Positions 7,086 through 47,606 of a stretch of DNA of 64,000 nt are shown here, piece after piece; position 1 is the stretch's first letter, and the number at the start of each line of letters is the position of its first letter. The notes below the pieces were generated by a model. The model was not told the origin of the DNA. It searched no databases and was given only the letters and a program-made list of their open reading frames with translations. The translations under genes were made by a program, and so were the position numbers. Origin of the DNA: Fimbriimonadaceae bacterium (GTDB lineage Bacteria > Armatimonadota > Fimbriimonadia > Fimbriimonadales > Fimbriimonadaceae); NCBI GenBank assembly GCA_023957775.1, contig JAMLGR010000012.1, forward strand, positions 62,001 to 126,000, in the 5' to 3' direction.

Positions 7086-10000
7086 TCACAGCGCGGATGA
7101 ACTCCGCGCCGTCCCAGTGGGTTCCAGGTTCAGGCGGACGTGCAGGTCCGACGCCTCGCGCACGTTCAAGCGCTCGCCGAACGCCAGGCGCACGCTGGCA
7201 CCTTTGGTCGACATCGAAACCCGACAGCCTTTGCCGCCCAGCGTGCACACGGCGTCCACGGCCCGGAAACCCTCGGGCCGTTCGAGCGTGAGCGCTTCGA
7301 CGCCCACGGAACCGTGGCGGACCTGGAGCGTGGCCTCGAGACGCCTGCCACGAAGGGTCTGCGAGTACGTGCCCCAACCCTCGGCCGCAGTGAACGGGGC
7401 ACGGAACTCATCGGGCGTCAGCTTGGGCGCAAACCCGATCTCGCCCTTGGGGCCGTGGTAGCGAAACCCGCACATTGTGAGGAAGACGCCATACGCCGCC
7501 ATCGAACGCGCGTAGTGGTCGCCGCACTCGATCTCGTTGAAGGGATTGCGTTTCTCCGGGCCGTACCGATCGTGGATCGTGCGTACGATCGCAAGCCCCT
7601 CGTCGACCAGCCCTTCCGCGATCATATGCGCGGCGGCCTGGTACTCGAAGCCGTTCATGCACTCGTTGAAGTACCCCACCACCCAGTCGGCATGGCCCTT
7701 GCCCTTGGCCTCTTGCGCCCCGCCCCGGGGGAAGGAGGTCATCACCAGCCCGGCCTCGCCCGGCATCGCGTACCAGCGCCCGCCCTTGATCACCGCCTGC
7801 ATCGCGTTCATGTACTGGCCCGCATCCGGCGCGAAGTTGTACTTCCACAGAGACTTGAGCGCCGTCCGCACCTGCTCGCGCGGGAGCACCGGTTCGAGCC
7901 CCACCTGGTGCAGCCAACTGTCGCCGAGCACCTGGTCCACGTGGCAACCGGGCCCGTAGCCGATGCTCTCAGGGTGGCTGGGATCGCGCTCCATGGCGAA
8001 GTACTCGCCGTTGAACAGCTGCTCGGTGACGCTCGCGCCGCCCTTGGCGACCACGGCCTCGAGCTCCTCCGCGTAGGCTGCTTCCCCCACATCGCGTGCC
8101 ATCGCCGCGCCAGCCCGAAGGGCCGCGAGATAGACGCTCGAGATCCAGGAGATCTTGCCCGCCCAGGCGGCGTCCAGGGTGTTGTACTGCCAGCCTTCCA
8201 AAACGCCATCGCCATCGGCGTCCTCTCTTCGAAGGCGCTCGATCGAACCCTTCACCTTCGGCCACACTCGGCGAAGGAAGGCGCCGTCGGTGGCCATCGT
8301 GTGCTCTCGGTAGGCGCGCACGATCGTGCCGGCCTGGCCGTCGTGGGCGATCTGTTTGCCGCTCTCCGCGCGGTAGAAGATCGTGCCGTCGGGCTGCCAT
8401 GCGAGCCCGAAGTCCACGCGCTCGCGCACGTCGCGCTCAAGTTCGGGGAAGAGCCGCGCTGCGGCCTGCGCGTAGTTCCACACGTGCTGGCACGTGCCCG
8501 GGCAGCAGTACACACCCTCCCACCCGTAGAAGCGCCCGTTGTCGAACCGATGCGCGGTGCCCGTTGCGAGGCAGTCCACGGAGACGAGCGTGCGTTCGAG
8601 AAACCAGTGCGGAAGGGTCGAGTCGAACCACGTGTCGACCCACTTCAGGGTCTCGCCGCGGAGCCGCGGCGCTTCGCGGGCGTAGGCGTGCACCGCCTCT
8701 CGCGCCGAGTCGCTGCGCAGCGAATAGTGCTTCTTGAGGTTCGGGAGGTCCTCGATGGCACCGAACTCGCCTTGCGGCGGCCCGTAGTTGGGAAAGTGCC
8801 ACGCGAGCACGAACTCGAGCGTTTGGGACTCGCCGGGAGGAATGGCGAAAGGAGCCTCGATCACCCCCAGCAGCACGCCCGGATCGGACCTGGAGGCTCG
8901 AAGGAGCACCCGTTCGAACATCTCCTCGCGCTTCTCTTCCGAGGCGGTCGCGGGCACTGGCTCGATGACATTCGGAGGGCCGGTCCACGCCCTGGTCCCC
9001 GCGGGCCTGTCCAGGATCGCCAGCGCCATGGAGCCGTAGTCGGGCAACTTGTCCCACTCGACGTCATCCCTCCAAGGCGTGTCGGAGAACACGATCTGAT
9101 CCACGCAGATGTGACCCCAGCCACCGGTCACGGCATCCACAATCCGCAGGACGGCGCGCTTGCCCGCAAACTCGCGCACGTCGAAGCTCGCGGGGCGCAT
9201 CGGATTGGAGTTGCGACCCGAGGCGGTGCGCACGACCTTGCCGTCGATCAGCAGGTCAAGGCTGGTCTGGCCCTTGTGGCCGCCACCCCCGATCAGGAAG
9301 TTGACGTATCCGCGCTCGATCGTGAACTCGGGGCTCGTGAGGGTGCCCGTAGGCAGGTCGCTCGCGGCGGATTCCTCGCCGTGGCGCGATTCGTGGGTGT
9401 TGACCAGGTACTCGCCGTGCGCCTTGGTCTCGCTCTTGCGCTCCGGCATCTGGCTTCGGGGGAAGGGACCGTCGCCGAAGGCCGTGCCGGTCGAGATCCA
9501 GGGCGCGTAGGTCGCTCGCTCGAAGTCTTCGAACGCGATGTCGGGCCGTCCGGTGGAGCTGGCGGGGTGAAGCGGCGTCGCAACGCACTCGACCATCACC
9601 GTGTCGCCGTCGTAACGCACCCGGTTCACACGCTTGAACAGATCCTGGTGGCCTGAGAACCCGGCGATGCGATTGTCCAGACTTGCGAGAACCTTGCCGC
9701 GCATGGGCTTGTCGGTCGGGTTGTGCAGGGTGTACCGAAGCACGGAGAGAGGTTGGCTCGAATCGTCGGTTTGAAGAGGAATGAACGGAGAAAACGCCTC
9801 GAGTTCGATACGGAGAGGAACCTCCGGGTCCGAGTAGCGGACCACGCCCACCGGATAGCGGTTCTCGAATTCGATCGTTCGCATGGTGCCCAAATCGAAG
9901 CCGGGCATGTCGCCGCCCCGACCCTCCAACACGAACTCAAAGCGCTGCTCGAATGGGGAGCGCACCTCCATCGGCTCGGCGTAGTGCCCCCCTCGCGACG

Positions 10001-11200: not shown

Positions 11201-12166
11201 CTAACCCCTCCGCCGCATCTTGTCGAGGGCCACGGAGAGCACGATGATCGCGCCGGTCACGATCTCCTGAATCCAGTTCGCCCAGCCCATGTGCGAACCG
11301 CCAGCCCGAATCGTGGTCATGATCGCGGCGCCCAGAAGCGCTCCGGCGATGGTGCCCTGTCCCCCGGAGAGGCTCGCACCGCCGATCACCACCGCGGCGA
11401 TCACCTCCAACTCCAGTCCTTGCGCCACGGTGGGATCGCCCACCGTGAGGCGCGAGAACTGCATCAGCCCCGCAAGTCCGGCGAACAGCCCGCCCACGAC
11501 GTACACGCTCAGCTTCACCCGATCGACCGGGACGCCGCACAGTCGGGCGGCATTCTCGTTGGACCCGATCGCCACCAGATGGCGGCCGAAACGCGTTCGC
11601 CTCAGCACCAGCGCCATCAGGGCGGCGAAGACCAGCATCGTCCACACCCCGATCGGAACGAGCATCCACCGCTGCTCCTTGCCCAGGGTCGCGAGCACGT
11701 CCGCCAACCAGGTCATCGGGGCGTCGATCTTTTGCTCGTTCGCCAAGCCCTTGGCCAGTCCGCGGATCACCAAGAGGGTGCCGAGCGTCACCACGAACGG
11801 CCCCACGCGGAGGCGGGTGACCAGCAGGCCGTTGCACACTCCGCACGCCACCGCCGCCCCGATGCCGCCCAGAAGGGCGACCCACGGCCCCTGCCCGCGA
11901 TCGAGGAGCCACGCGATCACAACCGTGGTGAAGGCGACCGTCGAACCCACGGAGAGGTCCAACCCGCCGCTCACGATCACGTAGGTCATCCCGATGGCCG
12001 CCATGGCCACGATCGTTCCTTGCCGGGCCAGGGTCTCGAGATTGGCGGCGGTGGGGAACGTCTCGGGCCGCAGGAGCGCGAACAGTCCGAACACGGCCAT
12101 CCAGGCGACCACGAGGCCGACCAGGCCCAGTGCGGGGCTGCGCGAAATCCGCTGGAGGAGGCTCAC
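11201..12166 (-). CDS. ribose-type sugar ABC transporter permease (set 1)
   Basis: 321 residues from the GTG at 12166. This start is preferred because AGGAGG lies 10 nt upstream and the GTG overlaps the TGA of the ATPase gene (GTGA); the ATG at 12205 would lie 43 bp inside the ATPase gene. RbsC/BPD_transp_2 family: about ten hydrophobic helices, with the signatures GMTYVIVSGGLDLSVGSTVA and VVIGGASLSGGQGTIAGALL. It forms the inner-membrane pore for sugar uptake with the ATPase and binding protein encoded directly upstream. The sugar is unknown. Confidence 0.92.
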   Translation of the reverse strand: MSLLQRISRSPALGLVGLVVAWMAVFGLFALLRPETFPTAANLETLARQGTIVAMAAIGMTYVIVSGGLDLSVGSTVAFTTVVIAWLLDRGQGPWVALLGGIGAAVACGVCNGLLVTRLRVGPFVVTLGTLLVIRGLAKGLANEQKIDAPMTWLADVLATLGKEQRWMLVPIGVWTMLVFAALMALVLRRTRFGRHLVAIGSNENAARLCGVPVDRVKLSVYVVGGLFAGLAGLMQFSRLTVGDPTVAQGLELEVIAAVVIGGASLSGGQGTIAGALLGAAIMTTIRAGGSHMGWANWIQEIVTGAIIVLSVALDKMRRRG

Positions 12167-17958: not shown

Positions 17959-18960
17959 ATGATGAAGAACAAATGGATCGGTTGCGTCGCGGTGGCGGCG
18001 ATGGTGTTGGCGATGCTGGCCGGGTGCCAGCCCAAGGGCGGCACGACGACCGCGTCGGGCGGCGCGGGCGGCGGCGACGGCAAGACCTACAAGGTGGGCG
18101 TTTCGATTCCGGCCGCCGACCACGGTTGGACCGCCGGCATCAAGTGGTGGGCGGAAGAGGCCGCAAAGCTCTACCCGAACATCCAGTGGACGATCGAAGA
18201 CGCCAAGGGGCCCGACGAGCAGATCGGCGACCTGCAGAACCTACAGAGCCAGGGCGTGGACGCGCTCGTGATCCTCGCCACCGAGAGCGCGCCGATCACC
18301 CCGATCGCGAAGAAGCTGAAGGAGGCGGGCATCCTCATCATCAACGTCGACCGCGGCTTCACGGAGCCCGTGGCCGACCTGTTCATCGAAGGCGACAACA
18401 AGGCGTTCGGCCGGAAGTCAGCGCAGTACATGGCGCAGAAGCTGAACGGGAAGGGCAACATCGTGATCCTCGAGGGCATTCCCAGCACGGTGAACACCGA
18501 CCGCGTGACGGCCGCCCTGGAGGTCTTCCGCGCCTACCCCGGCATCAAGGTCGTGGCGCAGGACAGCGGCATGTGGAACCGGGAGACGGCCGAGAAGGTC
18601 ATGCAGAACATGCTCGTGGCGCAGCCCGCGATCGATGCGATCTGGGCGAGCGACGACGACATGGCGCTGGGCGTTGAGAACGCGCTGAAAGCCGCCGGCC
18701 GGGACAAGAACATCTGGATTCTCGGCGGCGCCGGCATGAAGGATATCGTGAAGCGCGTGATGGACGGCGACCCCATGTACCCCGCGGACATCACCTACCC
18801 GCCCTCGATGATCGCCGTCGGCATCCACGAAGCCGCCTCGATCCTCACCGCGGGTCGCGAGAAGACCCTCCAGTTCATGCCCAAGCACCTCGTGCTAGAC
18901 GTGGACCTGATCACCCCGGAGAACGCGAAGGACTACTACTTCCCGGAAAGTGCTTATTAG
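17959..18960 (+). CDS. sugar ABC transporter substrate-binding lipoprotein (set 2)
   Basis: 333 residues. The N-terminus has the lipobox LAGC followed by a Gly/Thr-rich linker. The Peripla_BP_4 domain starts at YKVGVSIPAADHGWTAGIKW and includes GVDALVILATESAPITPIAK and AIDAIWASDDDMALGVENAL. It begins 4 nt after the permease stop. Set 2 places the binding protein last whereas set 1 places it first. The gene ends directly at a heptad repeat array that separates it from the convergent aldolase gene. Confidence 0.93.
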   Translation: MMKNKWIGCVAVAAMVLAMLAGCQPKGGTTTASGGAGGGDGKTYKVGVSIPAADHGWTAGIKWWAEEAAKLYPNIQWTIEDAKGPDEQIGDLQNLQSQGVDALVILATESAPITPIAKKLKEAGILIINVDRGFTEPVADLFIEGDNKAFGRKSAQYMAQKLNGKGNIVILEGIPSTVNTDRVTAALEVFRAYPGIKVVAQDSGMWNRETAEKVMQNMLVAQPAIDAIWASDDDMALGVENALKAAGRDKNIWILGGAGMKDIVKRVMDGDPMYPADITYPPSMIAVGIHEAASILTAGREKTLQFMPKHLVLDVDLITPENAKDYYFPESAY

Positions 18961-19026
18961 CGTGAGGCGTGAGGCGTGAGGCGTGAGGCGCTTTACGCTT
19001 CACGCTTCACGCTTTACGCTTTACGC
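18961..19026. repeat. heptad array (GCGTGAG type), hairpin-forming
   Basis: Four 7-bp units CGTGAGG are followed by CGC and five units TTTACGC/TTCACGC. Read on the other strand the right arm is GCGTGAA/GCGTAAA, so the arms pair with G-U and a few mismatches. The right end lies inside the aldolase gene and encodes its last residues and stop. Being between convergent genes it could act as a two-way transcription barrier. Confidence 0.75.
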
Positions 19027-19780: not shown

Positions 19781-20373
19781 AGCTTATTATGGGGGGACGG
19801 GACTCGGGAATCGGGATTCGGGAATCGGCGCCTCGGGCTCCTTGTGAGGCTCACCTCTCCCGAAAGTGCAACACTGGCATCCCAAGTGACATGAGGGGTG
19901 TGCAGCATCCATCCACTCCCTTGAACCCAAACATCCAAGACGTGATTCCTCGAGAGCGAGATCTTGAGGTCGCCCAAGGCGCTGACTTGAACGCGCCTCA
20001 CCACGAGGCTGGCCCTCTCTACCTCCCGAAAAAACTGTTGGCACACCCTCCAACGGATCGCGTCGTTTGGATCGCCTGGAGGGGTCCGTCGTCGAGGGAG
20101 GGCGACGCGTTGGACGCTCCTGGGGAATTCGAAGTCATCCGAACCCATCACGTACCGGGTTCCGCAACGAATGCGCCAGGAACACTCGACGTTTAGGCTC
20201 ACATCGGCCTTGGTGATTTCCACGCCGCGCTTGTTGAGTTTTGGCTTCTGCTCGCCGAACTCGAACACGTGGAAGATGGGTTTCCAGTAGTCGCTTAGAG
20301 GCAAGCCAACGAGGAGGCTGCGAAGTGCCTCTTGCAGTTCGCGCTGGGCGATCTGCTCCCAGCGGTCACCCAT
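19777..20373 (-). CDS. protein of unknown function with a repeat-encoded tail
   Basis: 198 residues in the middle of an overlapping operon: its ATG lies 8 nt inside the hydrolase gene and its TGA overlaps the aldolase start. I recognise no family. Residues 1-170 look like a compact soluble alpha/beta protein with many Trp and Arg (for example ECSWRIRCGTRYVMG). The tail FPNPDSRVPSP is encoded by the 7-bp repeats at 19801-19828, so the original stop was probably displaced or the tail was added by repeat expansion. Confidence 0.6.
   Translation of the reverse strand: MGDRWEQIAQRELQEALRSLLVGLPLSDYWKPIFHVFEFGEQKPKLNKRGVEITKADVSLNVECSWRIRCGTRYVMGSDDFEFPRSVQRVALPRRRTPPGDPNDAIRWRVCQQFFREVERASLVVRRVQVSALGDLKISLSRNHVLDVWVQGSGWMLHTPHVTWDASVALSGEVSLTRSPRRRFPNPDSRVPSPHNKL
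19801..19828. repeat. heptad array (GAATCGG type) inside a coding end
   Basis: Four tandem 7-bp units: GACTCGG, GAATCGG, GATTCGG, GAATCGG. Adjacent GAATC and GATTC are complementary and can form a small hairpin. The array is within the last codons of the unknown gene on the minus strand. Confidence 0.7.
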
Positions 20374-32520: not shown

Positions 32521-34587
32521 ATGATCGTCTCCTACGACAGGCCCATCAAGCTGAGCCAAGACTTCTCTCCCAAGGGCGATCAGGCCGCGGCGATCGAAGG
32601 GTTGGTCGAGGGCCTCGATTCGGGGTACCGCTTCCAGACCCTGCTGGGCGCGACCGGCACCGGCAAGACCTACACGATGGCGAGCATCATCGCCAAGTCC
32701 CAGCGTCCCGCCCTCGTGATGGCGCACAACAAGACGCTGGCCGCCCAGTTGTGCCAGGAGTTCCGCGCGTTCTTTCCCGACAACGCGGTGCACTACTTCA
32801 TCAGCTACTACGACTACTATCAGCCCGAGGCGTACGTGCCCCAGTCCGACACATACATCGAGAAGGACTCGAGCACCAACGACGAGATCGACCGGCTGCG
32901 CCATGCCGCGACCCAGGCGCTGCTGGAGCGGCGCGACGTGATCGTCGTGGCTTCGGTGTCGTGCATCTACGGCTTGGGCTCGCCGAGCGAGTACGCGGAG
33001 TCGGTGATCACGTTTGAGAGCGGGCTGCCGTTCGACCTCGACGCCGCGCTGAAGAAGCTGGTGCAGATGCAGTTCGTGCGCAACGAGATGGCGTTGGAGC
33101 GCGGCACGTTCCGCGTGCGCGGCGACACGCTGGAGGTGCAGCCCAAGGACGAGGAGGTCGTGACCCGGATCGAGTTCTTCGGCGACTCGGTCGAGCGGAT
33201 TCGGCTCTTCGATCCCCTCACGCAGGAAGTGCTGGACGAACCCACGAAGGTCAGCATCTTTCCCGCGACGCACTACGTGACGCCGTGGGAGCGCCTCGAC
33301 GCGGTGATCGAACAGATCGAGGAGGAGCTGGAGCAGCAGTGCGCCGCGTTCACGCAGCAGAACAAGCTGCTCGAGGCGCAACGGCTTCGCCAGCGCACCG
33401 AGTTCGATCTTGAGATGATGCGGGAACTGGGCTACTGCAGCGGCATCGAGAACTACTCGCGCTACTTCGACGGGCGGGCGCCCGGCACCGCGCCGTACAC
33501 GCTGCTCGACTTCCTTCCCAGCGACGCCGTGGTGTTCATCGACGAGAGCCACCAGACCCTGCCGCAGATCCGGGCGATGTACAACGGGGACCAGCAGCGC
33601 AAGTCGGTGCTCGTCGACTACGGCTTTCGTTTGCCGTCGGCGCTCGATAACCGGCCGCTCAAGTTCGAGGAGTTCCTGACCCGGGTCAAGCAGGTGATCT
33701 TCGTGAGTGCGACCCCCGGCCCGTTCGAGGCCGAGAACGAGAGCAACCGCGTCGAGCAGATCATCCGCCCGACGTACCTGCTGGACCCCGAGGTCGTGGT
33801 GCGGCCGACCAAGGGCCAGATCGACGATCTCATGGCCGAGATCCAGACGCGGGTCGCGAAGAAGCAGCGCGCGCTCGTCACGACGCTCACCAAGAAGATG
33901 GCCGAGGATTTGACCGGTTATCTACAGGATTTGGGAGTGAAGGTGCAATACATTCACTCCAACGTGCATTCCTTGGAGCGCCCGGAGATTCTCCGCGATC
34001 TAAGACTGGGCGTCTACGACGTGATCGTGGGCGTGAACCTCTTGCGCGAGGGCCTCGACCTGCCGGAGGTCACGCTCGTCGCGATCCTGGACGCGGACAA
34101 GGAGGGCTTTCTTCGATCCGAGACGTCGCTGGTGCAGACCATTGGACGGGCCGCGCGCAACGTGGACGGGACCGTGATCCTCTATGCCGATCAGATGACC
34201 GGTTCAATGGAGCGGGCGATCGACGAGACGAACCGCCGCCGCGCGATCCAAGCCGCGTACAACGAGGAGCACGGTGTGGCTCCGGAGACGGTGAAGAAGG
34301 TCGTCCGCGAGACCGTGCGCTCCTACGACGCCGTGGCCGAGGTCGTGGCGCAGTACGGAGAGGGCATCGTCGATCCCGACAACCCCATCCGCCTCGAGGA
34401 TCTGCCTCTGCTGGTCAACGCGATGGAGCAGGAGATGAAAGACCTCGCCAAGGCGATGGAGTTCGAGAAGGCGGCCGCCCTCCGCGACGAGATCGCCGCC
34501 TTGCGCAAAAACCTCGGGGCCGTCGACGGCAAGTTGGGCGTGAGTTCGAAGAGGAAGCTTCCCGGCCGGCACGGCCGGGAGCGCTGA
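32521..34587 (+). CDS. uvrB: excinuclease ABC subunit B
   Basis: 688 residues, the full length for UvrB. Helicase-like damage-verification subunit of nucleotide excision repair. Walker A is [15 protein letters not shown], the beta-hairpin that clamps DNA is in [15 protein letters not shown], helicase motifs include [15 protein letters not shown] and [11 protein letters not shown], and [12 protein letters not shown] is motif VI. The C-terminal UVR domain that contacts UvrC is seen in [16 protein letters not shown]. It stands as a single gene closed by a perfect hairpin made of 7-bp repeats; uvrC, at 44449, also adjoins such an array. Confidence 0.98.
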
Positions 34588-34633
34588 TCGTTGGTCGTTT
34601 GTCGGGGAGAGCCGTCGACAAACGACCAACGAT
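34587..34633. repeat. heptad hairpin after uvrB
   Basis: A perfect 18-bp stem, 34587-34604 pairing with 34616-34633, with an 11-nt loop GGGAGAGCCGT. The stem is built from 7-bp units (TGGTCGT, TTTGTCG on one side; ACGACAA, ACGACCA on the other). It starts on the last base of the uvrB stop codon and lies between convergent uvrB and hsp20. There is no T-run, so it is not a standard intrinsic terminator. Confidence 0.85.
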
Positions 34634-34650
34634 AGACGACTAGCGGGCGC

Positions 34651-35091
34651 TTACGAAGTCGCCTGCTTATTGATCGGGACCTTGCGACCCACGACGCCCG
34701 GCGCCTTCGGCACCAACACGGTGAGCACGCCGTGCTCGTAGGATGCCTCGACCTTCTCGCGATCGACCGGAATGTCGATGGTGAACGAGCGCTGGAAGGA
34801 ACCGTAGCTCCGCTCGATTCGAACGTAGTCCTCGCGATTCTCTTCCTTGGCGAACTCTCGCTCGCCTCGAATCGTGAGGACGTCGCCGACGAGCTCCACC
34901 TCGATCTTCTCCTCGTCCATGCCGGGCAGTTCGGCGACGAACTTCAGCGCCTCGGCCGTCTCCTTGATGTCCACAGCGGGCATCCAGGTGCCGCGCACTT
35001 CGTCGGACGCCCCGCCAAACATCTCGTCCATCATCTTGCCGAAGCGGTCGATGTCGCGAAGGCGTGCAAAGGGTGTGTAGCGGGTAATCAT
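34651..35091 (-). CDS. small heat shock protein Hsp20/IbpA family
   Basis: 146 residues from the ATG at 35091. A TTG at 35100 is only 3 nt from GGAGGT, while the ATG is 12 nt from it; neither spacing is ideal. The alpha-crystallin domain covers about residues 40-135: WMPAVDIKETAEALKFVAEL, GMDEEKIEVELVGDVLTIRG and ASYEHGVLTVLVPKAPG. ATP-independent holdase of unfolded proteins. It has its own strong promoter with an inverted repeat around it, suggesting stress control. Confidence 0.93.
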   Translation of the reverse strand: MITRYTPFARLRDIDRFGKMMDEMFGGASDEVRGTWMPAVDIKETAEALKFVAELPGMDEEKIEVELVGDVLTIRGEREFAKEENREDYVRIERSYGSFQRSFTIDIPVDREKVEASYEHGVLTVLVPKAPGVVGRKVPINKQATS

Positions 35092-39629: not shown

Positions 39630-42071
39630 ATGAGTTTTCCCACGCGCGGCTTGGTGCCGCTGATCGTCGCCGTCCTCATGCCCGCCGTCTGGGCGCAAAC
39701 GTCGCCCCCGACGGAGCCGCCACCCCAACGCGAGGCCCCCAAGGAGCAGCGGCAGACGTCGAAGCCCGGTGAACCGAAGCCGTACAAAGAGGTCGTCACG
39801 GCCGAAGCCAAGACCCAAACCGGTCTGTTCGCCGTTCACCGCATTGGGGACAAAGTGCTCTTCGAAATCCCCAAGCAGGCTCTGGGAGCCGAAATGCTCT
39901 GGACGACGGAGATCGCCGAGAGCCCGCTGGGCGGATTCGGCGGAACCCAACTGGGAGACAACGTCGTGCGCTGGACGCGCCGCGAGAACAAGATCTTCCT
40001 CCGCAAAGTCAGCCACAGCATCCGAGCCGCCGACGACGCCGCGATCAAGATCGCCGTCGCAGCCGCCTCCGTCGAGCCGATCATCGCGGCGTTCGACGTC
40101 GAGGCCGAGGGAGAGGGCGGATCGGCCGTGATCGACGTCACGAAGTTCTTCACGAGCGACCCCCAGGACTTTTCCGCCAAGCGCGCGGTCAACGGTGGGA
40201 ACGTGGACGCCTCCCGCTCGTACATCGACTCGGTCAAGGCTTTCCCCACGAACATCGAGACCCGCTCGCTGCTCACCTTCAACGCCGCGCCGCCCGCCGC
40301 ACCTAGCCCGTTTGGCGGACGGGGCGCGGGAGGGGCCCGCAACACGGCCTCCAGCGCGACGGCACTGGTGCACTATTCGATGGTCCTCCTCCCGGAAACG
40401 CCGATGCACCCGCGCGAATACGACTCCCGCGTGGGCTACTTCAGCGTGGGCTTCCAAGAGTACGGGGCACCCGAGAACCGGGTGATGGACAAGCGGTACA
40501 TCTCGCGGTTCCGCTTGGAGAAGAAGGACCCCGCCGCGGCGGTCTCCGAGCCCGTCAAGCCGATCGTCTTCTATTTGAGCCGGGAGGTGCCCGAGAAGTG
40601 GCGCGCCCCGATGAAGCAGGGCATCGAATGGTGGAACAAGGCGTTCGAGACCGCGGGTTTCCGCAACGCGATCGTCGCCCGCGACGCGCCGACCGCAGCG
40701 GAAGATCCCAACTGGGACCCTGAGGACGCGCGCTACTCGGTCGTGCGCTGGGCGCCCACACCCACGGAGAACGCCATGGGGCCGAGCGTTCAGGACCCGC
40801 GCAGCGGGGAGACGATCTCCGCGCACATCATCGTTTGGCACAACGTGCTGAACCTCGCGCAGATGTGGTACTTCGTGCAGGCTTCGCCCAACGATCCCTC
40901 CGCCCAACGGTTGCCTCTTCCCGACGAGCTGACCGGCCGGCTGATCGAGTACGTCGTCGCCCACGAGGTCGGGCACACCCTCGGATTGCAGCACAACTTC
41001 CGGGGCTCGTCGACCTACTCGATCGCTCAACTGCGCGACCCCAAGTTCACCGAGCAGTACGGAACCGAGGCGTCCGTGATGGACTACGGGCGCTTCAACT
41101 ACGTCGCCCAACCCGGCGACGGGGCTCGCCTCATTCCAACCCTCGGACCCTACGATCTCTTCGCGATCGAGTGGGGCTACAAACCGATCCTCGGCAACGC
41201 GTCCCAGGAGAAGACCGAGCTCGATAAGATTGCCGCGCGACAGGTGACGAACCCGATGCTGCGGTTCGGCGGCGGCATGCGCGAGGATCCGACCCAACAG
41301 TCGGAAGATCTCGGCGACGACGCCTTGGAAGCGACCCGGCTCGGCTTGTTGAACCTCGAGCGCGTGATGAAGTACCTCGTGGCGGCCACCACCAAACCGG
41401 GCGAGGATTACTCGTTCCTGCAGGAGGTCTACCAGCGCGTGCTGGGGCAGCGCTCGATGGAGCTGAACCACGTGACGCGCCTCGTCGGCGGCGTCGTCGA
41501 GACGAACTGGCACGCAGGCCGCGGCGGGGACGTGTTCGTGCCGGTGCCGAAGGCCCGCCAGGCCGCGGCGATCGCGTTCCTGAACGAGCATGCGTTCGCC
41601 ACCCCCGAGCCGTTCCTCGATCCGGGGGTGTTGCTCAAGATCGACCCAGCCGGCTGGACCGAGCAGGTCGTGGGCACGCAGCGAGGGCTGTTGGCCTCGC
41701 TCCTTTCGGACGACCGGATCAACCGGATGACCGACAACGTGGCGATGATCGGCGATCGAGCCTATCCGATCACGGAGATGGTCGCCGACCTGCAGAACGG
41801 CATCTGGCGCGAGCTGCTGACCACGGCGCCGGTGATCGACGAGTATCGAAGAAGCCTCCAGCGGGCCTATCTCGAGATCTATCGGGGCAAGCTGGTGGGG
41901 GATGCCGCCACAACGACCGAACTGCGCGGCGTGGCCGTGTGGGCGCTCAAGGGTCTGGCGGCGACGATCGACCGAGCCCTTCCCAAGGTCAAGGACAAGC
42001 TGACGATCCTGCACCTTCAGGATTGCCGACGAACCATCGACCGCATCCTGGACCCGAACAAGGGAGGCTAG
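39630..42071 (+). CDS. secreted zinc-dependent metalloprotease (DUF5117/DUF5118 zincin type)
   Basis: 813 residues from the ATG at 39630, with GGAGGG 11 nt upstream and a signal peptide ending near AVWAQ. Residues 50-330 match the DUF5118/DUF5117 region that precedes the catalytic domain (RIGDKVLFEIPKQALGAEML). The zinc site is AHEVGHTLGLQHNF, the extended HExxHxxGxxH of metzincins, and SVMDYGRFNY supplies the Met-turn. The C-terminal helical part includes GMREDPTQQSEDLGDDALEA. It is probably an extracytoplasmic peptidase of unknown target. A TAGAAT 25 nt upstream of the start may be its -10 box. Confidence 0.9.
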   Translation: MSFPTRGLVPLIVAVLMPAVWAQTSPPTEPPPQREAPKEQRQTSKPGEPKPYKEVVTAEAKTQTGLFAVHRIGDKVLFEIPKQALGAEMLWTTEIAESPLGGFGGTQLGDNVVRWTRRENKIFLRKVSHSIRAADDAAIKIAVAAASVEPIIAAFDVEAEGEGGSAVIDVTKFFTSDPQDFSAKRAVNGGNVDASRSYIDSVKAFPTNIETRSLLTFNAAPPAAPSPFGGRGAGGARNTASSATALVHYSMVLLPETPMHPREYDSRVGYFSVGFQEYGAPENRVMDKRYISRFRLEKKDPAAAVSEPVKPIVFYLSREVPEKWRAPMKQGIEWWNKAFETAGFRNAIVARDAPTAAEDPNWDPEDARYSVVRWAPTPTENAMGPSVQDPRSGETISAHIIVWHNVLNLAQMWYFVQASPNDPSAQRLPLPDELTGRLIEYVVAHEVGHTLGLQHNFRGSSTYSIAQLRDPKFTEQYGTEASVMDYGRFNYVAQPGDGARLIPTLGPYDLFAIEWGYKPILGNASQEKTELDKIAARQVTNPMLRFGGGMREDPTQQSEDLGDDALEATRLGLLNLERVMKYLVAATTKPGEDYSFLQEVYQRVLGQRSMELNHVTRLVGGVVETNWHAGRGGDVFVPVPKARQAAAIAFLNEHAFATPEPFLDPGVLLKIDPAGWTEQVVGTQRGLLASLLSDDRINRMTDNVAMIGDRAYPITEMVADLQNGIWRELLTTAPVIDEYRRSLQRAYLEIYRGKLVGDAATTTELRGVAVWALKGLAATIDRALPKVKDKLTILHLQDCRRTIDRILDPNKGG

Positions 42072-42081
42072 GCCGTCTCGC

Positions 42082-42218
42082 CTGTCGTCTATCGTTTGTC
42101 GTTTGTCGTTTGTCGTTTGTCGGGGAGAGGGGCACCCTCCGACGACAAACGATCAACGACCAACGATCAACGACCAACGACCAACGACCAACGATCAACG
42201 ACCAACGATCAACGACGA
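42082..42218. repeat. large heptad array (TTGTCGT / ACGAYCA)
   Basis: Left arm: six 7-bp units (CTGTCGT, CTATCGT, three TTGTCGT, TTGTCGG). Central segment: GGGAGAGGGGCACCCTCCG. Right arm: eleven units alternating ACGACCA and ACGATCA, led by ACGACAA and ended by ACGACGA. The arms are roughly complementary with about one mismatch per unit. The array fills most of the 250-bp gap between the metalloprotease and the repeat-protein gene; the remaining 100 bp before 42322 show only a ribosome site. Confidence 0.85.
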
Positions 42219-42321: not shown

Positions 42322-44361
42322 ATGAAACTGAAGAACAGCACCTTGGCGACGCTCGCCGTCGCCGCTTTCGTCTTAGGCGCGGGCCCCCGGGCTTTCGCCT
42401 CGCCGTGGCAAGAGCCGCAACAGTCCGGTACGACCGTCAAGGCCGATGGGTCGCGAATCGAGGTCAAGGAGACCAAGAACGGGGACGGGACCACCACCCG
42501 GACCGAGTCCGAGTACGACAAGAAGGGCACCCTGCGCAAGCAGAGCTCGAAGACCGTGAACGCCAAGGGCGAAACCGTCGAGGAGACGGAGTTCGAACGC
42601 GACGCGAAGGGCAAGACGACCGAGACCCACACGAAAGGGGACTCCTCCAGCACCCGCGAGGAGTACACCGACAAGAACGGCACCAAACAGGTCAAGGAAA
42701 CCGACCGCGAGAAGGGAAAGGTCGTGCGCGAAAAGACCACGACGACGGACGCCAATGGCAACTACGAGGAGGAGGAGACCGATAAGAAAGCCAAGACGAA
42801 GCGCGTCTCCAAGGGGACTTCGAAGGACGGAAAGAAGGTCACCGAAGATAAGACCGAGGTGAAGGCGAACGGGACCTCCACCCGCACGAAGACCGAGTAC
42901 TACCCGGACGGCAAGCCCAAGAAGGTGGACGACGTCTCGCCCGACGGGCGCAAGACCACGAGTTCGACCGAGTACGACAAGGACGGCAAGCCCAAGAAGA
43001 AGACCGAGTACGACGGCCAAGGCCGCAAGAGCTCCGAGACCGAGTACGGTCCCGATGGCAAGCCCGTCAAGAAAACCGACTACGACCCATCGGGCAGGCC
43101 CACCTCCACAGAGGAGACCGACAAGGACGGAACGCATCGCAAGACGGAGTACAAGAACGGCCACAAGGTGCGCGAGATCGAGGAGCACCCGGACGGAAGC
43201 CGCACCGAGACCGAGTACAAGAACGGCAAGCCGGTGAAGACGACCAAGTTCGACAAGAACGGCAAGCCGATGGCTTCGCTCGGTGCGAACAGCGGCACGT
43301 TGACCGGCGTCGTGGTCGCGGTGCCCGACCAGGTCGTCGCAGGGGCGCCGATGGTGTTCTCCGCCGCGACCCTCTCGGGAAACGTGATCGCCCCTGACGC
43401 CGTCCAGGTCACCGATGGGCAAGGGCAGGCCCTTCCCGTGACGCGTCGAGACGACGGCTCGTGGGTCGCCGAGGTGCCTTCAGGGTCCTCGACCGCGCAT
43501 GTCCGCATCGGCGACGTACTCGTCTCGGCGCTGGTGGTCGGTGCGGGAACCCTGATCGACGGCAAGCCCTCGATCCGCAACGCGCCGAAGTACGCGCTGC
43601 CCGGCAGCGTCGTTTCTCTCGGCGGCTCGTTCGGCCCTTCGAACCCGGTGGTCAAAGTCAACGACCGGGTCGTCCCGGTCCTGGCTTCGTCGCCCGCGTC
43701 GATCAAGTTCGCGGTGCCGGCAGACGTGACACCCGGCTCGGCCTCGATCGTGGTGGAGGCGGACGGGATCGCAAGCGCGCCCGCGACGCTTCAAACCCTC
43801 GCGATCGCTTGGGACGCCGCGCCGACGACGCTCGTGCTTGGGCAAGCCGCCCGGCGCAACCTGCGGGTGATCGGGACCACCGAGCCGGTCGCCGTGATGA
43901 TCGAGGACCCTTCGGACGACGCGGCCACGATCCGTTCGCGCGGCGTGAAGCGGTCCACCGGAGGCGCGACGAACGTCGTCGCGATCGAACTCGTCGCCAC
44001 GCGGATCGGCGCTTACTCGGTCCAAGCGACGCTTGCCGACGGCGAGAGCGCCGTCCAGAAAGATCGCGGCAACGCGGAGGCGGCCCGAGCCGACGCTGCG
44101 GGCTGGCGCGAGTCGGCGAAGGGCGAGACCAACGCCGAGCGCGCGCAGCAGAAGCGGAACGCCGCCGCGAACGCCTACCACGCCGCCGAGGACTGGGACG
44201 CCGCCGCCAAGGCGCGCGAGGCCGGAGATCTCGAGAAGGCGCAAGCCCTCGAAGAGGCCGCCCGCCACCGGGAAGACGCCGCGCGGGCTTGGGGCAGCAG
44301 CGGAGACGCCGACGCGGCCGCAAAGTCGGAGAAAGCCGCCAAGGAGTTGGACGGCCGGTAA
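42322..44361 (+). CDS. secreted YD/MORN-like repeat protein with alanine-rich helical tail
   Basis: 679 residues; GGAGG sits 6 nt before the ATG. After a signal (MKLKNSTLATLAVAAFVLGA) come about 290 residues of short degenerate repeats with cores such as TEYDKDGKPKKKTEY and TEYGPDGKPVKKTDY, resembling the YwqK/RHS-type repeats that form beta-sheets. Residues 330-580 look like IPT/TIG-type immunoglobulin domains (VVSLGGSFGPSNPVVKVNDR). The last 90 residues are Ala/Glu helical (AANAYHAAEDWDAAAKAREA). It is probably a cell-surface protein, role unknown. Heptad arrays lie on both sides. Confidence 0.7.
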   Translation: MKLKNSTLATLAVAAFVLGAGPRAFASPWQEPQQSGTTVKADGSRIEVKETKNGDGTTTRTESEYDKKGTLRKQSSKTVNAKGETVEETEFERDAKGKTTETHTKGDSSSTREEYTDKNGTKQVKETDREKGKVVREKTTTTDANGNYEEEETDKKAKTKRVSKGTSKDGKKVTEDKTEVKANGTSTRTKTEYYPDGKPKKVDDVSPDGRKTTSSTEYDKDGKPKKKTEYDGQGRKSSETEYGPDGKPVKKTDYDPSGRPTSTEETDKDGTHRKTEYKNGHKVREIEEHPDGSRTETEYKNGKPVKTTKFDKNGKPMASLGANSGTLTGVVVAVPDQVVAGAPMVFSAATLSGNVIAPDAVQVTDGQGQALPVTRRDDGSWVAEVPSGSSTAHVRIGDVLVSALVVGAGTLIDGKPSIRNAPKYALPGSVVSLGGSFGPSNPVVKVNDRVVPVLASSPASIKFAVPADVTPGSASIVVEADGIASAPATLQTLAIAWDAAPTTLVLGQAARRNLRVIGTTEPVAVMIEDPSDDAATIRSRGVKRSTGGATNVVAIELVATRIGAYSVQATLADGESAVQKDRGNAEAARADAAGWRESAKGETNAERAQQKRNAAANAYHAAEDWDAAAKAREAGDLEKAQALEEAARHREDAARAWGSSGDADAAAKSEKAAKELDGR

Positions 44362-44365
44362 TCTC

Positions 44366-44439
44366 TGATCGTTGGTCGTTTATCGTCTATCGTTCATCGT
44401 CTGCACGACAAACGACAAACGACAAACGACCAACGATCA
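44366..44439. repeat. heptad hairpin before uvrC
   Basis: Left arm of five 7-bp units (TGATCGT, TGGTCGT, TTATCGT, CTATCGT, TCATCGT), loop CTGC, right arm of five units (three ACGACAA, ACGACCA, ACGATCA). The outer two units pair perfectly, the inner three with one to three mismatches. It lies between the repeat-protein stop and the uvrC start at 44449, so a uvrC message starting upstream would carry it in the 5' leader. Confidence 0.85.
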
Positions 44440-44448
44440 ACGCTCCCC

Positions 44449-47567: not shown

Positions 47568-47573
47568 ATTGTA
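47568..47573 (-). promoter_or_regulatory. coaD: -10 box of a leaderless transcript (coaD)
   Basis: TACAAT on the minus strand, then GAACC (5 nt), then the ATG at 47562. Confidence 0.5.
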
Positions 47574-47606
47574 TCGTTTGTCGGCGGTCGTTTGTCGTTC
47601 GTCGTG
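47572..47606. repeat. one-armed heptad array between coaD and icd
   Basis: Five tandem 7-bp units: TATCGTT, TGTCGGC, GGTCGTT, TGTCGTT, CGTCGTG. They match one arm of the arrays near 42082 and 44366, but there is no complementary arm, so no hairpin forms. The array occupies the shared promoter region of coaD and icd. Confidence 0.65.

Follow-up and report, generated by a model that had tools for sequence, protein, structure and literature searches.

In a 64,000-nucleotide stretch of the genome of a Fimbriimonadaceae bacterium (assembly GCA_023957775.1, contig JAMLGR010000012.1, positions 62,001 to 126,000; the window below), an inverted array of 7-bp units at 42082-42218 lies just behind the stop codon of a met-zincin gene. 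This array and its relatives in the genome are of a kind already known, bacterial heptanucleotide repeats, and are new in detail: they have several units, mostly non-quadruplex, keep strictly to one polarity, and are anchored at stop codons. The period is exclusively 7, the units fall into several families, the sites are intergenic, arms at stop codons have their G-rich strand in the sense direction (sense-G), paired arms come G-rich arm first, and the target array is foldable. The reading we favour, which we hold to be about as probable as all else together, is that the target is a heptanucleotide long simple sequence repeat (SSR), similar to short tandemly repeated repetitive (STRR) sequences, at a gene 3′ end, which would grow by 7-nt slippage and be kept at, or biased to, transcript 3′ ends.

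The initial annotation had described six left and eleven right units flanking a G-rich centre, and this layout was confirmed as follows.

42082-42122, minus strand: left arm, six TTGTCGT-type units, the reverse complement of ACGAYMA
42123-42141, strand not assigned: centre (loop), 19 bases, G-rich, GGGGAGAGGGGCACCCTCC
42142-42218, plus strand: right arm, ten to eleven ACGAYMA units with a 14-bp higher-order period

The left arm begins 6-10 bp past the met-zincin stop codon, and its outer two units are degenerate (..CTGTCGTCTATCG). Tandem Repeats Finder counts 10.7 units in the right arm, the eleventh, ACGACGA, being degenerate, and favours a 14-bp period there (95% matches vs 86%), as would be expected if blocks of two units had been duplicated. 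For a non-random alternation between ACCA and ATCA in this arm, as formerly claimed, no support was found: across nine consecutive units the variable base is T C T C C C T C T, which makes 7 runs (exact P ~0.21). The centre looks like a piece of a dispersed palindrome, CCCCTCGCCCCTCYGGGGGAGAGGGG, which also adjoins arrays at other loci (L032 10165, L058 4340, L060 8960-9090, and L066 2100).

When ACGAYMAACGAYMA was searched with at most 2 mismatches, 42 matches were found in the window, as compared with a mean of 3.25 and a largest count of 8 in shuffled sequences. In the whole 3.5-Mb genome, AACGAYMAACGAYMAACGA has 79 matches and its reversed control has none. The array is therefore neither a chance product nor a single assembly accident, and the genome-wide search that had been proposed for it did turn up further arrays. 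With units head-to-tail and no spacers, the array is not one of clustered regularly interspaced short palindromic repeats, and with no T-run behind its hairpin, it lacks the hairpin-then-T-run form of an intrinsic terminator; the initial annotation was right in rejecting both a CRISPR and a simple terminator.

Periodicity was examined by self-match at fixed lag in a genome sample of ~460 kb, made of the window and twenty further stretches, most of them chosen for their known arrays, which makes the densities upper estimates. Period 7 yielded 61 arrays, whereas the same threshold yielded 0-3 arrays for each of periods 5, 6, 8, 10, 11, and 13, and none in Markov sequence. Tandem 7-bp units thus occur far above chance, dispersed and mainly intergenic, as in heptanucleotide long SSRs and STRR-like repeats. 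The density in this enriched sample is ~13 arrays per 100 kb, which suggests up to several hundred arrays in the genome. The units form at least six families: AACGAYM; AACCACA; AATCGGG (GGGAATC); AAGGMCC; GCGTGAG/GCGTAAA; and AACCGCA/AACCCCA. Families are mixed at some loci, for example at L045 5209-5273, where GTCGTTT is followed by CCACAAA.

Placement statistics rest on ~570 kb of stretches, most picked around known arrays, with genes called by a codon model that was seeded with uvrC and the met-zincin gene. Each of the 93 arms examined lies between genes. Within 12 bp of a stop codon, 47 sense-G arms were observed against 21 expected, and the ratios of sense-G to sense-C at stops were 25:8, 8:3, 3:3, 7:4, and 4:0 for unit families A to E. 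The excess is sharpest in roomy spacers, those that leave over 60 bp free, where 22 sense-G arms lie within 12 bp of a stop (1.8 expected) and sense-C arms stay at chance level (2 vs 1.8). Start codons have no clear excess (4 observed vs 2.5 expected), and arrays near them tend to the opposite sense (26 conforming vs 3 by nearest edge).

At a few loci the unit itself provides the stop codon, as TGA in GTTGATC and GCGTGAG or TAG in TTAGGCC. Arrays as suppliers of stop codons were nevertheless rejected, because stop usage next to arrays equals the background (p = 0.23).

Most arrays are single-armed. In spacers that hold arms of both types, the G-rich arm preceded the other in all 17 cases. The target folds much better than its shuffles on both strands (z of -5.0 and -5.9), and paired arrays have a mean folding z of -3.8. 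The arms do not mirror each other at the variable positions (0.31 vs 0.34 under the null, p = 0.66), which rejects mirror copying between arms by a fresh snap-back and fits independent slippage; the two arms are thus mostly of one family, yet each turns over on its own.

The same rules appear far outside this genome. At least 120 stretches from GTDB species genomes carry four-unit arrays of the ACGAYMA unit; they come from at least ten phyla, which include, among the matches listed, Acidobacteria, Bacteroidota, Cyanobacteria, Campylobacterota, Deinococcota, Chloroflexi, Gemmatimonadota, Spirochaetota, Patescibacteria, Actinobacteria, Firmicutes, and Proteobacteria. These loci also carry period-7 arrays of many other units. 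Neighbouring complementary arms of opposite type are G-rich first in 13 of 13 cases, and among 128 arms, 26 start sense-G at the stop of a long open reading frame and 10 sense-C, while the counts for the two strands at 534 shifted control positions were 23 and 9. Within Armatimonadota, the host's own phylum, only 2 of 291 genomes have four-unit ACGAYMA arrays, and with a looser pattern the unit is present in 5 of the 85 genomes of the family. An array-rich relative, G058, uses the unit GGGATTC.

At orthologous loci of relatives without arrays, the met-zincin stop codon is in several cases followed by an ordinary GC hairpin and a T-run, and here the target array occupies that site with no T-run behind it. 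Comparison of these loci suggests that arrays may have replaced intrinsic terminators. Behind the orthologous stop codon in the relative G012 (L239 4078-4125) there is a short heptamer hairpin with a different unit, TCAGCCT, at the same site.

The mechanism we favour is half inferred. Slipped-strand synthesis would give rise to arrays and alter their length by 7 nt, or by blocks of 7, at a time, and inverted pairs may have begun as a fold-back or an inversion, with arms that then turned over independently. Arrays would persist at the stop codon most likely because the G-rich nascent RNA there, no longer translated, serves to mark or shape the end of the transcript, for which pausing, an RNA-DNA hybrid, or a 3′ hairpin in the paired case are candidate means, and coding sequence and promoters would be kept free of them. 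A hairpin would be optional, most arrays being one-armed.

Several points weigh against this reading. Slippage alone explains neither the 7-nt step nor the anchoring at stop codons. The single arms that make up the majority show no folding (mean z of -0.3 and -0.1), so that an obligatory RNA hairpin is rejected. The gene calls behind the placement counts are not curated annotation, and the GGGAATC family has no stop bias (3 vs 3), in a sample small enough to be uninformative. Genome-wide, no link was shown between arrays and loss of intrinsic terminators, as there are few terminators anywhere in the genome. Finally, the family member G066 carries arrays built of units of its own (GTGAATC and TTCAGTG), and its congener G068 has none in 200 kb, so that any function is not an essential one.

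This sporadic distribution would also be expected from purely neutral slippage, in which arrays are tolerated without effect wherever genes and promoters stay intact. The many unrelated units and the independent variation of arms fit such neutrality, and so does the finding that, among the classes of long SSR, heptanucleotides are the most frequent in many genomes (Mrazek 2007, cited in PMC4679880). Tolerance, however, predicts no strand preference, yet at the stop codons of roomy spacers sense-G arms outnumber sense-C arms 22 to 2, and C-first pairs were never found among the 17 pairs here or the 13 in other phyla. Arm length does not fall off steadily, either, but peaks at 4-5 units. We regard neutral slippage as possible but rather doubtful.

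The strand-specific anchoring and the absence of arrays within genes would be accounted for by transcription-coupled expansion. Past the stop codon, bare G-rich nascent RNA would re-anneal to the C-rich template as an R-loop, and repeated repair or restart would add 7-nt units, making the bias mutational and without function. The recurrence of one rule in several phyla and units is in line with this, as is the presence of MutS in all 12 genomes checked, this one included, which removes loss of mismatch repair as the cause. On the other hand, R-loops do not predict the opposite sense near start codons, and we consider this expansion unlikely.

G-quadruplexes have been proposed for the closest known repeats, GGGAATC of Xanthomonas and GGGGAYT of Nostoc (Rehm et al. 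2015, PMC4692102). Those heptamers are intergenic with a four-unit peak, which was taken as coinciding with the quadruplex requirement, lie near stop codons on the sense strand, and are often in convergent inverted pairs; in Xanthomonas, 83% are position-conserved between two species. In RNA sequencing of Xanthomonas, quadruplex-capable arrays are scarcer in the middle of transcripts and commoner at their starts and stops, and transcripts start or stop at the heptamers more often than in controls (PMC4692102). The arrays here share the stop-proximal placement on the sense strand, the single orientation of inverted pairs, and even the GGGAATC unit, as (GGGAWTC)3 has 91 matches in this genome. 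They differ in that at least six unit families coexist in one genome of another phylum, and in that most units (GTCGTTK, GGTTTGT, and GCGTGAG) have no GGG tracts for a quadruplex.

Four such tracts are present in only 16 of the 93 arms. The dominant GTCGTTK unit, which is also that of the target, has no GGG, and yet it has the same placement and the same length peak at 4-5 units (5, 13, 19, and 3 arms with 3, 4, 5, and 6 units, in one count). Quadruplexes thus cannot be the shared cause; the proposal is refuted as a general one and very improbable for these arrays, although it could hold for the GGGAATC family.

An equally improbable origin is a mobile or enzyme-made element, either by transposition like that of repetitive extragenic palindromes (REP) with their RAYT transposases or by a telomerase-like reverse transcriptase adding heptamers, since, against the dispersed copies, the fixed polarity of inverted arms, and the one reverse transcriptase in this genome, there is no match to the Y1 transposase (PF01797) here, no reverse transcriptase match in array-rich G058 (89% complete), and no unit order shared between arms.

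Absence of the hairpin nuclease subunit SbcD was rejected as a cause as well, because canonical SbcD exceeds its cut-off in just one of the 85 genomes of the family, so that its absence does not set array-rich members apart. SbcCD seems to be lacking or to have been replaced in the family, and this near-absence is perhaps a permissive background.

Beyond this genome, we tentatively propose, at somewhat less than even confidence, one general bacterial phenomenon: across many phyla and with any unit, arrays sense-G at stops and G-first when paired would come from a process that adds 7 nt or from a function at transcript ends, either of which would act, at the point where translation stops, on the G-rich nascent RNA or on its template. 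Why long simple repeats of bacteria so often have seven bases is a question that has stood since 2007. Several mostly non-quadruplex units under one placement rule separate the phenomenon from G-quadruplexes, and the findings direct attention to the stop codon, transcription, and the 7-nt step.

Other known heptamers are matched in part. In the long SSRs with 5-11 nt units (Mrazek 2007, cited in PMC4679880), heptanucleotides dominate and slippage is proposed, as here, and a strand rule and stop anchoring are absent from the description given in that citation. The TAACTGA repeats of Beggiatoaceae, cyanobacteria, and Bacteroidetes (MacGregor 2015, PMC4679880) are likewise dispersed intergenic heptamers of sporadic phylogeny, but they are direct repeats of one unit just upstream of start codons, whereas those here are found at stop codons, in many cases inverted, and comprise many units; a repeat of that type was rejected, as placement at start codons is near chance.

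The likeness to heptanucleotide repeats of cyanobacteria, which the initial annotation had pointed out, stands as far as period 7, dispersal, intergenic sites, and several units per genome are concerned, as in the STRR sequences of Calothrix and Nostoc. It fails in that the unit is not specific to cyanobacteria, given its spread over phyla. The host is GC-rich and apparently non-cyanobacterial, and the array is not in a tRNA-Leu intron, as an Rfam search of the window found one tRNA only.

The target lies between two genes.

39630-42071, plus strand: upstream gene, a DUF5117/DUF4953 met-zincin, ending 6-10 bp before the array
42322-44361, plus strand: downstream gene for a repetitive, secreted-looking protein, starting ~100 bp past the array

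The downstream product is repetitive and charged with a signal-like N-terminus, matches no Pfam family, and has a DNA repeat of 75 bp at 42891-43030. Further arrays in the window had been overlooked in the initial annotation.

34585-34642, plus strand: sister inverted array of the ACGAYMA unit, between convergent uvrB-like (32521-34587) and HSP20 (34651-35091) genes
44366-44445, plus strand: sister inverted array of the ACGAYMA unit (left arm 44366-44400, right arm 44405-44445), filling the gap between the 42322-44361 gene and uvrC
47571-47605, minus strand: short degenerate array of the ACGAYMA unit, between divergent genes
18960-19026, plus strand: inverted array of another heptamer, GCGTGAG then CGCTTYA, beginning at a stop codon between convergent genes
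19798-19828, plus strand: short array of CGGGAAT, equal to the GGGAATC unit

In the array at 34585-34642, the first unit provides the stop codon TGA. The right arm of the array at 44366-44445 stops 3 bp short of the predicted uvrC start, leaving no space for a ribosome-binding site, and uvrC may start downstream of the prediction or be leaderless.

Next to heptamer arrays, and within the spacers that hold them, a second dispersed repeat class of period 8/9, CACGCAAAGAACGCAAAGGGCGCAAGGGG, was seen in intergenic DNA at L050 ~11850-11935, L043 ~7860-7930, and L053 ~2236-2300. A dispersed intergenic motif, TCATCCCGAGCGAAGTCGAGGGA, adjoins arrays at L037 8290 and 11030; motifs like it are familiar from many phyla. 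The same stretch, L037, has very long GGTTTGC/GGGGTTT arms at 18375-18490 and 18887-18990, ~400 bp apart, with a G-rich strand that is telomere-like in look.
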